Of a stretch of DNA of 5,706 nt, positions 584 to 5,706 are shown in pieces. A model generated the notes under the pieces. It saw only the letters and a list, made by a program, of their open reading frames with translations. It did not search any database and had not been told where the DNA came from. The stretch comes from Candidatus Zhuqueibacterota bacterium. Lineage in GTDB: Bacteria > SM23-31. Where the stretch lies: positions 1-5,706 of the forward strand of contig JADFON010000143.1 in assembly GCA_022562855.1 (NCBI GenBank). Direction: 5' to 3'. The translations under genes and the position numbers were made by a program. How positions within the stretch are numbered: the first letter of the stretch is position 1; the number at the start of each line of letters is the position of its first letter.

Positions 584-617
584 AAAATAAAAAAACCGGA
601 GCAGATTTGCCCCGGTT
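584..617 (-). terminator. Rho-independent terminator of the surface-protein operon
   Basis: On the minus strand, AACCGGGGCA (617-608) pairs with TGCTCCGGTT (603-594) across a four-base loop AATC. This is a ten-pair stem with one G-U pair. It runs directly into a T-rich tract, TTTTTTTATTTT when the last stem bases are counted. It begins 25 bases after the TAG of the FadL-like gene. The T tract is on one side only, so it should stop minus-strand transcription. It marks the operon's end and separates it from the OB-fold gene to the left. Confidence 0.92.
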
Positions 618-2026: not shown

Positions 2027-2032
2027 CCTCCT
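2027..2032 (-). promoter_or_regulatory. Strong Shine-Dalgarno (AGGAGG) overlapping the upstream stop codon
   Basis: The minus strand reads TAGGAGG, then seven bases, then ATG. AGGAGG is a perfect consensus at ideal spacing from the FadL-like start at 2019. Its first two bases are the last two bases of the TAG (2033-2031) that ends the barrel frame. Ribosomes finishing the barrel gene would release on top of this site, which suggests translational coupling and supports a shared transcript. Confidence 0.8.
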
Positions 2033-2627
2033 AATAGGATATGGATTGACTTACACCAATTGAGACTGCCGAACCATTTATTGTACGAAACTGCAGGTTA
2101 AAAGCATAACCCGCAGGAAGATTAAAATTTACACCGGCAACAAAGCCGGATTGCAGACCGGATACATACTCTTCATCGCTGAATACCTCAATCTGCTGAA
2201 TTTTCCTCCCCTGGTACCCGGCATATATATCATACTGGTTGTAGCTGAAAATAGTTCCCAACGTAAGCCAATACTCACGCCAATCGAATTTTTGATAATA
2301 ATCGGTGTCATTTCCGGACAATGTAGAAAACGAATGACCTATGGGCATGAACCGTAAAGCGCCGATTTCCCCCATTAACCTAACATTATTGATTTCCGGG
2401 ACACTCCTGTATATCTTGGCGGAACCACCTATCGCAAGAGAGTTCTTTGCGTCGAAATTCGTTCGCGCTCTCTCATCCGGATATCTAATATTCATATTTC
2501 CCATGCCGGCAAGGAGTGTCAAATCAAATACATCGTTTACTGAAAACGAAGCATTTAAGAGTCCACGAACCGAGAGGTATTCGTGATTTTCCAATTCATA
2601 TTTAATCCGGTCGGCGCTGATTCCCAC
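2031..2627 (-). CDS. Uninterrupted 198-codon barrel segment downstream of the TAA
   Basis: This is the open segment an automatic gene finder would probably report, using GTG at 2627-2625 as its start. I do not favour it as a stand-alone gene. The GTG is only six bases after the TAA, there is no good Shine-Dalgarno sequence in front of it, and a protein starting here would lack the signal peptide that an outer-membrane barrel needs. Reinitiation after the short leader is conceivable, but the product would stay in the cytoplasm. It is best read as the mature part of the interrupted gene spanning 2750-2031. Confidence 0.4.
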   Translation of the reverse strand: MGISADRIKYELENHEYLSVRGLLNASFSVNDVFDLTLLAGMGNMNIRYPDERARTNFDAKNSLAIGGSAKIYRSVPEINNVRLMGEIGALRFMPIGHSFSTLSGNDTDYYQKFDWREYWLTLGTIFSYNQYDIYAGYQGRKIQQIEVFSDEEYVSGLQSGFVAGVNFNLPAGYAFNLQFRTINGSAVSIGVSQSISY

Positions 2628-2750
2628 ACTCCATTATTTACTTTTGAGCATGACCGGGTTGCCGAGTGTCTGTCCCATTCCGGGGCTTTGCATTAATAAA
2701 ATAATTACAACCGGAGTAACAGTTATTTGGACTAACCTGAGATATTTCAT
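2031..2750 (-). pseudogene. Outer-membrane beta-barrel protein gene interrupted by an in-frame TAA
   Basis: Read from the ATG at 2750-2748, the frame gives a signal peptide (start MKYLR, hydrophobic core VVIILLM, likely cleavage near GMGQT). After codon 38 it meets TAA at 2636-2634, then continues in the same frame for 200 codons to TAG at 2033-2031. The part after the stop looks like a small outer-membrane barrel: alternating hydrophobic and polar strands, glycine- and aromatic-rich turns, and a C-terminal aromatic residue (SQSISY). The start is supported by AAAGGA seven bases upstream and by an in-frame stop at 2756-2754. Without the TAA it would be a normal secreted protein of 239 residues, roughly 210 when mature. 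The gene lies 51 bp after the Ig-repeat gene and 11 bp before the FadL-like gene. I do not recognise a named family. A true nonsense mutation, a sequencing error and recoding are all possible. No second lesion is visible, so any inactivation looks recent. Confidence 0.75.
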
Positions 2751-2801: not shown

Positions 2802-5706
2802 TTATTGTGCGGGTGGCAGTTTTATGTCCCGAAAACCGGAAACGCCACCGGCAGCAGCACGTATCCGCAATCCTTTCCCGATATCGGCAACGGTGTACGT
2901 CATAGTTGTAGTTATTATTCCAAAGTCGTTAGTTGAGGCGGTGCTCATTATGGACACTCCCGGATTATTTCCCGAACCGTCGTCCTCAGTGCTGAAACTC
3001 ACCAACGTTCCCGAAGCGACCGGGTTTCCATTGAGGTCCGTTATCAATGCCGAAACACCGATCTGGATGAGGTTTCCTGTCAGAAGCGTGCCCACTGTGT
3101 CAGCAGACACCGTTATAATGTCAGGAATACCCGCTTGAAATGTGACAAGAGATAAAGTAGTAGTCGCACTGCCGCTCACCGCAGTTATTACCGCGGTTCC
3201 TGTCTGGGTTCCGCTCTGCAATTGTTCTTTAACAATTCCTTCCTCATTCGTAAATAATAACACTGCGTTGATCCCTGTCGACACAAAAGTACCCAATGTC
3301 GTTGCCAGATTTACCGGTAGACCTTCTACGACGGGATTGTTATCGGTATTTGTTATCCTTACGGTTAATCCTGTACTATTTGGACCATCGCCGCCCTTGA
3401 TCTTTATAAACGAAGTATCTGCAGTCACAAAAATATTGGCGGCTGGTTTTACAGCTTCTTGTTGGATAAAAACAAACGTCGAATCTTTGATATTCGTGCC
3501 AAAAGTTGCATTTATCTTCACCAAGCCTGAATCTTCCCCAGCCTCAAAGAGAATTTCAATTTCACCCCTGTCATTGGTAGTTTCTTCATTCACGATAAAT
3601 CCAAGGCTCGAACCGAAAGTCACTTTCCTGCTTGACAGCGCGACGCTGTTAGTCGTTTCCTTTAGCAATGCTTTGATAGTGACCGTTTCCCCAACTTTTA
3701 TCGTATCCCTCTCGGAATTTGTGGTCAAGGTGATCCCCCGGTACAGGAATGGATCGAGTTGGTCGGGTATGCCATTTTCCTGAAAAATAACAGTCCGCCC
3801 TCCAGCAGATACTGTTACTGCCGGATACAAATCTTCCTTTGAGGACACGCTTTTCAGGGCAAATGAGGCTATACCCCAGTTCGGATTCTGTGTTCCATCT
3901 GCCAATAGCTGGTCTTGAGTCAAACCTGTTCCGTTGTTTCCCGGATTAACGGTAAAATCGACAATAACACCCGCAACAGGATTTTGTGTCGGATCGACAA
4001 TAAGCACCCTAAATAACGTCACAGATTCCCCGTCTGCCAGGATGCTGTTGTCATTTGCTCCTTTTATTTTTAAACTATCGACAAATCCCGCCACTCCCGC
4101 AGTTGGAAGCTGGTTTATAATTAGTGTATCGGATATCTCACGGCTGCTTGCTATAATAGTTATATTGTCTCCCGCAGAATTCGTAGGATAAATCAGGGAA
4201 GTCGAAGCCTTTCCATTCTCTGTTTCTATGGGACTCAGGATCACGCCTATCGGCGGATTGGTGGAATAGTGCACCAGGGTCCCGTCCGTGACAGGATTTC
4301 CGTTTATATCCGAGACTATCGATCCGATGGCAAGTGAAAAAGTCCCGTCCTGATTATCGACCGGAGGCGGAGACGAGCTTGTATTGATTCTGCTTGGTTC
4401 CCCGGCTATCGTAAGGAATGCCTCGTCTGAAATAGAAACTTCCTGTAACGTCGCCCTGAGAATAACGCTGTTTACGGTTTTACTTCCAATCGATCCGGAT
4501 TTGAATATCGATTTTGCACTTCCGGTAGCATCGGTAACGGCAAAAGTAGGATCGATAGACTCGCCTCCTGCCGGTCCCTGGACAATTTTAAAGCTGACAA
4601 TCCGGTTTGCGACGGGATTACCGCTTATATCGGTTACAATAGCCGTCAATTCAACGGTGCCGCCGTTTACGGCAACAACGACAGGATCAACGATTAGTTT
4701 AATGTTTGCCGGTGGAGCCGATACTATTGTTACTATTGTGGTTGGCGGTGTGGGAGTAACGAGGTTGTTTGTCACTTTTGCCGATACTGTGGCAACCCCT
4801 CCGATGGTACTTGACAGGTAGGTAAATGCCTGACCGTTTGCATCAGTAACAGATTCCGGAGGATTAACGTCTCCGAGATTTGTAAAAAACAGGACTTGCT
4901 CACCTGTTTGAGGACTACCATCCAAATCGGCAATCGTAAAGGTCAGTCTTACCGAATCGTTCGCCGCTATCGAGTTGGTATCCGCTACCAAGGTGGTGAC
5001 GAGACGCGTAAATTTTATCGATGTACTTGTTTGTTTACCGGCAGCCGCCGCGGTTACCGAAGCAACACCTTGAATAACGCTTTTTAACGAGTCTATTAAA
5101 ATACCGTTAACATCTGAAAAACCTTTGATTATCGTAGAGTCATTCGAAAATACTGCGTCGACCGTTTGAAGGGTTATCAGGGCAGATTCGATCGGTATTC
5201 CTGCGCCATCCCTCAACGAAACTCTGATCACCGTTTGTGCCGACCCATCAGCTTCGAGCGCCTCCGGCTGGGCAGTAATCTCTATCTGTGTTCCTACAAA
5301 ACTTACCTGGGTAGTTTGTGTAATACCTCTTAATTCTGCGGTTATCAATGCAATTCCGTCGCTTCGTTCACTAATCAGATTAGCGGTAGCTACTCCGATG
5401 CCATTTGTAAGCGCTGTTGCATCGATCAAGCCTAACGACGTCTTAAACAATACCTCCACATTTTGGATTGGATTGTTCAAGGTATTTTTCACCGTAACCG
5501 TTATTTCCGAACTGCTCGTTCCATCCGCTATTATCTCCGTTGGATTCGCTTTAACGGAAATGTTAAGAAGTTCCTGACCGCCACCGGTAAAATTCACAAG
5601 GGTCTGAGCGGTAATCGTCAATGCAAAAGTCGCGGTAATCGTCGACACCCCTGTATCAGATGTGCTTTGTAATAATACCGAGGCTTTTCCTTCTCCGTCG
5701 GTTATG
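2802..5706 (-). CDS. Giant Ig-like repeat surface protein (Big_1/invasin-type), 5' end outside window
   Basis: This is the C-terminal part of a very long, probably extracellular repeat protein, likely an adhesin or surface filament. The frame is open to the right edge, so the true start is not visible. The GTG at 5648 lies inside a domain, because codons upstream of it read ITDGEGKASVLLQSTSDTG, a typical Big_1 ending. Numbering from that GTG as residue 1, nine further Ig-like units follow at about 27-119, 121-216, 217-310, 315-415, 420-515, 523-625, 637-732, 738-838 and 843-945. Recurring marks are ADG near the start of a unit (41-43, 133-135), a central D-x-x-G-N-P-V (340-346, 447-453, 871-877) and a closing alternation of small residues with TVSA or TITA. 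I saw no cysteine and only one tryptophan. The protein ends in KLPPAQ before TAA, with no LPxTG, recognisable type IX sorting domain or barrel. The repeat class is well supported. Adhesion is inferred from the family (invasin, intimin). Two outer-membrane protein genes follow in the same direction. Confidence 0.9.
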   Translation of the reverse strand, partial: ITDGEGKASVLLQSTSDTGVSTITATFALTITAQTLVNFTGGGQELLNISVKANPTEIIADGTSSSEITVTVKNTLNNPIQNVEVLFKTSLGLIDATALTNGIGVATANLISERSDGIALITAELRGITQTTQVSFVGTQIEITAQPEALEADGSAQTVIRVSLRDGAGIPIESALITLQTVDAVFSNDSTIIKGFSDVNGILIDSLKSVIQGVASVTAAAAGKQTSTSIKFTRLVTTLVADTNSIAANDSVRLTFTIADLDGSPQTGEQVLFFTNLGDVNPPESVTDANGQAFTYLSSTIGGVATVSAKVTNNLVTPTPPTTIVTIVSAPPANIKLIVDPVVVAVNGGTVELTAIVTDISGNPVANRIVSFKIVQGPAGGESIDPTFAVTDATGSAKSIFKSGSIGSKTVNSVILRATLQEVSISDEAFLTIAGEPSRINTSSSPPPVDNQDGTFSLAIGSIVSDINGNPVTDGTLVHYSTNPPIGVILSPIETENGKASTSLIYPTNSAGDNITIIASSREISDTLIINQLPTAGVAGFVDSLKIKGANDNSILADGESVTLFRVLIVDPTQNPVAGVIVDFTVNPGNNGTGLTQDQLLADGTQNPNWGIASFALKSVSSKEDLYPAVTVSAGGRTVIFQENGIPDQLDPFLYRGITLTTNSERDTIKVGETVTIKALLKETTNSVALSSRKVTFGSSLGFIVNEETTNDRGEIEILFEAGEDSGLVKINATFGTNIKDSTFVFIQQEAVKPAANIFVTADTSFIKIKGGDGPNSTGLTVRITNTDNNPVVEGLPVNLATTLGTFVSTGINAVLLFTNEEGIVKEQLQSGTQTGTAVITAVSGSATTTLSLVTFQAGIPDIITVSADTVGTLLTGNLIQIGVSALITDLNGNPVASGTLVSFSTEDDGSGNNPGVSIMSTASTNDFGIITTTMTYTVADIGKGLRIRAAAGGVSGFRDIKLPPAQ
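2814..5570 (-). repeat. Tandem array of nine complete Ig-like domains (protein-level repeat)
   Basis: Approximate unit limits in DNA are 5570-5292, 5288-5001, 5000-4719, 4706-4404, 4391-4104, 4082-3774, 3740-3453, 3437-3135 and 3122-2814, each encoding about 93-106 residues. The units share a pattern but have diverged, and I see no near-identical DNA copies, so this is an old array rather than a recent expansion. The fifth and ninth units are the most alike, around D-x-N-G-N-P-V-x-x-G-T-L-V. Units six and seven depart most from the consensus. Boundaries were placed by eye from the recurring motifs and may be off by several residues. Confidence 0.75.

Follow-up and report, generated by a model that had tools for sequence, protein, structure and literature searches.

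The window, an entire contig of 5706 bp, carries on its minus strand the gene of a small outer-membrane barrel that is interrupted by one in-frame TAA. The stop lies between the export signal and the barrel. We consider it probable that a recent nonsense codon arose in a single gene in this lineage or strain, is either fixed in the sampled population or polymorphic there, and would lead to functional loss of the protein. The window comes from a draft genome of 2.5 Mb, in 491 contigs and 79.6% complete. Its phylum is poorly sampled, and six genomes were covered.

The split reading frame and the predicted barrel

Translation indicated that the segments 2750-2637 and 2633-2034 of the minus strand form one frame, and that the TAA at 2636-2634 is the sole break in it. 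The translation of 2750-2031 reads MKYLRLVQITVTPVVIILLMQSPGMGQTLGNPVMLKSK*WSVGIS...SQSISY*, with the TAA as codon 39 and a TAG at 2033-2031. The sequence surrounding the stop is CTCAAAAGTAAATAATGGAGTGTGG, with T as the next base, giving the context TAAT. A preliminary description of this DNA had reported the single shared frame, the TAAT context, K38 and W40 on either side of the stop, an aromatic C-terminal residue and 200 stop-free codons after the TAA. All of these were correct, whereas its list of the codons one change away from TAA was incomplete.

The 5' part (2637-2750, minus strand) begins with ATG and encodes a signal peptide and approximately 12 mature residues. The signal peptide has the hydrophobic stretch TPVVIILLM..., and its probable cleavage site, judged by eye, is near GMGQ. 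A Shine-Dalgarno-like AAAGGAAT is located 5' of the ATG. The 38 open codons alone have a chance probability of ~0.1, calculated from the base composition of the strand. The 200 consecutive open codons of the barrel part have a chance probability of ~5e-6, calculated in the same way. This part (2031-2633, minus strand) consists of 200 codons and the TAG, and ends in Tyr. Its frame has a positive codon-usage score, both shifted frames have negative scores, and it has no lesion other than the TAA. The nearest in-frame start-type codon 3' of the stop is a GTG at 2625-2627. A restart there would produce a 198-aa barrel with no signal peptide. A purine-rich GGAG nearly abuts this GTG, and is probably too close to serve as a normal ribosome-binding site.

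The read-through chain was modeled with AlphaFold from a two-sequence alignment, at a mean pLDDT of 63 (low confidence). The model contains a signal-peptide helix and about 10 long strands. Strand 1 begins at residue 41, just after the stop, so the downstream piece would keep the whole barrel and lose only the export signal and linker. The best Foldseek matches in the PDB are all generic outer-membrane barrels, with query TM-scores mostly between 0.3 and 0.5. The model and these matches support the barrel-like pattern that had been described after the stop, and the predicted product is an outer-membrane β-barrel with a signal peptide and antiparallel amphipathic strands. It resembles small outer-membrane barrels, among them OMP_b-brl (Pfam PF13505), in having about 10 antiparallel strands, a signal peptide and a C-terminal aromatic residue. 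It differs in matching the Pfam profile only weakly (E 0.0044, below the curated cut-off) and in reaching no named family.

The intact relative and the gene neighborhood

The searches yielded a single clear homologue of the barrel, in JANQEH010000244.1 (bacterium PL23a_bin.125), which belongs to another genus of the same family. The homologue is a single uninterrupted ORF of 246 aa, with 32-33% identity over the full length. It has the same signal peptide and linker layout, and the 5' part of the interrupted gene aligns with its N-terminus. A search with the relative as query reports one TAA inside the match. The alignment passes through the stop without a gap, with ...LENK-T-WSV... in the relative and ...LKSK-stop-WSV... 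in the window. The stop codon is thus not conserved, since the relative has a sense codon at the site. The residue between the equivalents of K38 and W40, which the preliminary description had proposed to examine in homologues, is Thr in this one relative. The Thr codon shares no base with TAA at any position, so it does not indicate the ancestral codon.

Comparison with the relative also suggested that the gene was under constraint. Divergence of the barrel gene at codon positions 1, 2 and 3 is 0.51, 0.44 and 0.665, respectively. The equivalent values for the FadL-like gene next to it are 0.42, 0.30 and 0.64. Divergence is greatest at position 3 and least at position 2, which is the pattern of a gene under constraint for most of the time since the two lineages split. 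Together with the intact relative and the complete modeled barrel after the stop, this supports the earlier proposal that the barrel gene was under selection until recently.

Additional relatives were sought in larger collections. Neither a pattern search of 84,980 species genomes nor a tblastn search against plasmids found a relative of the barrel. A weak match was observed in genome G007 (E 0.003). With the FadL-like neighbor as query, 42 loci were recovered, most of them in KSB1, Calditrichota, Neomarinimicrobiota and Ignavibacteria. At all of these except the locus of the known relative, the genes upstream encode other proteins. Barrel-like genes located upstream of the FadL-like gene at two loci (L014 and L021) were rejected, with no match to the family. 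The genes of the FadL-like relatives are often preceded by one for a CYTQ-type lipoprotein with many Tyr and Ser residues.

On its minus strand, the window encodes the end of a Big_1 repeat protein, then the interrupted barrel and an intact FadL/PorV-like protein, after which comes a terminator-like stem-loop. The barrel gene is best explained as the middle member of an operon encoding a Big_1 lipoprotein, a small barrel and a FadL/PorV-like protein. The upstream partner (2802-5706) is a Big_1/Ig-like repeat protein (Pfam Big_1, E 5.2e-53), of which the contig contains the C-terminal part; the gene runs off the contig end. The downstream partner (643-2019; Pfam Toluene_X, E 1.3e-14) also matches the NCBIfam BamG and PorV families, below their cut-offs. 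Its gene has its own strong Shine-Dalgarno sequence, TAGGAGGAAAG, which overlaps the TAG of the barrel gene. The stem-loop, with a T tail, is located directly 3' of this gene (594-617, minus strand) and is the probable end of the operon.

The same three genes are found in the same order in JANQEH010000244.1. The Big_1 protein there is 1403 aa at full length, has a lipoprotein-type N-terminus and is a predicted lipoprotein. The three genes come after a type IV pilus cluster of PilM, N, O, P, Q and PilT, as identified by sequence appearance. This position suggests that they may form a surface system tied to pili. In the window's genome, a separate contig carries the pilus genes as far as PilQ and ends soon after it. 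The same arrangement is therefore plausible in this genome, though the two contigs are not joined.

Other elements are present in the remainder of the window. Positions 1-285 encode the first part of a nucleic-acid-binding protein with an OB fold, truncated where the contig ends, with a Pfam tRNA_anti-codon match just below the cut-off. An intergenic palindrome, GTAGGGGCACGGCGTGCCGTGCCC, is located at 437-460, and has 4 copies in the genome at no more than one mismatch (0 for the reversed control). Another palindrome, at 354-373, had no further copy in the other contigs examined.

Origin of the stop codon

That the nonsense change is recent and real we infer from the absence of other damage, with one homologue at 32-33% identity for comparison. 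The gene is similar to the in-frame nonsense mutations surveyed in bacterial genes (PMC7918605), with one stop in an otherwise intact and recently constrained frame. Measuring dN/dS after the stop arose would take population or species-triplet data; the present comparison is with one homologue from another genus.

We analyzed how stop codons are used in the genome. TAA is the commonest terminator and closes 91 of 157 long frames (~58%). No stops were found inside 28 ABC-transporter and 8 TonB-receptor-barrel domain matches. These results indicate that TAA does not encode an amino acid in this genome, and that in-frame stops are not widespread. We also scanned 315 kb of the genome by codon usage for other single-stop splits. 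The scan found only cases resembling neighboring genes, in which a start codon follows the stop at a distance of up to about 8 codons. It is weak: the site in the window goes undetected, as the score of the signal-peptide piece is too low. The GTG in the window is also soon after its stop, so proximity of a start codon alone does not discriminate between the two situations; the gapless alignment does.

An assembly, consensus or sequencing error in the draft metagenome-assembled genome, with the organism's gene intact, is clearly less probable than a nonsense change but deserves serious consideration. The absence of other damage is equally expected from such an error, which would leave the same trace as a recent nonsense allele: one substitution is enough, and the rest of the barrel gene is undamaged. 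The state of the assembly (491 contigs, 79.6% complete), in which the 5706-bp contig breaks within a repeat-rich gene, is also consistent with an error. However, in-frame stops are uncommon among the genes sampled from this genome, and an erroneous substitution would enter the consensus only where coverage is low or a minority allele is picked up.

A stop that is tolerated or regulatory, with low-level readthrough producing a little exported barrel and lowering expression of the surface protein, is unlikely. Widespread in-frame stops have been reported in bacterial genes that are still under purifying selection (PMC7918605), and the barrel frame here is undamaged. A tolerated stop is possible on these grounds, but nothing at this site favors it. 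Reporter measurements in E. coli rank TAA as the most accurate stop (mean readthrough signals, 0.01-0.05%) and show better termination when T is the next base (PMC11126739). The TAAT context is thus a tight one, the relative has a sense codon at the position, and Rfam finds no RNA element. This agrees with the previous argument against readthrough from TAAT, and neither of the signs expected of programmed readthrough, a leaky context or a conserved stop, was found at the site, the latter by comparison with one relative. It is more doubtful still that the stop is maintained to throttle export of the barrel via rare readthrough, in which case only a small proportion of the cells or of the molecules would carry the protein. 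Phase variation, another early suggestion, found no support: the site has no repeat tract, tandem repeat, inverted pair or invertible element, and no second copy was found in the ~80% complete genome.

Two separate genes, one for a small secreted peptide and another for a barrel that restarts at GTG 2627, are very improbable. The in-frame GTG a few bases after the stop would allow such an arrangement. However, the relative is one ORF and its alignment passes the stop without a gap, rather than having the signal peptide and barrel as separate genes. The restart product would lack a signal peptide, and there is no ribosome-binding site at a suitable distance 5' of the GTG. No homologue with the same split was found, with one homologue in the data. 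Reassignment of TAA to a sense codon in this lineage has nothing in its favor beyond the open frame itself, and is effectively refuted by the use of TAA as the main terminator, which also ends the neighboring Big_1 gene, and by stop-free domain matches across the genome.

Consequences for the protein and the operon

The most likely explanation is therefore a broken allele of an ordinary kind or an error in the draft genome, rather than a new mechanism. With a recent nonsense codon, translation would start at 2750 and stop at the TAA, producing a 38-residue exported scrap. The product of any restart at GTG 2627 would be a barrel confined to the cytoplasm. Such a barrel could not leave the cytoplasm, so the protein would be functionally lost. 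The downstream FadL-like gene carries a strong ribosome-binding site of its own, and its protein is probably still made.

Neither a real stop nor an error would alter general understanding. If the stop is an error, it is a warning that automatic annotation would divide this gene between a peptide and a barrel with no export signal. If it is real, it would represent another surface protein lost by one change, with its operon partners intact, in a poorly sampled phylum.
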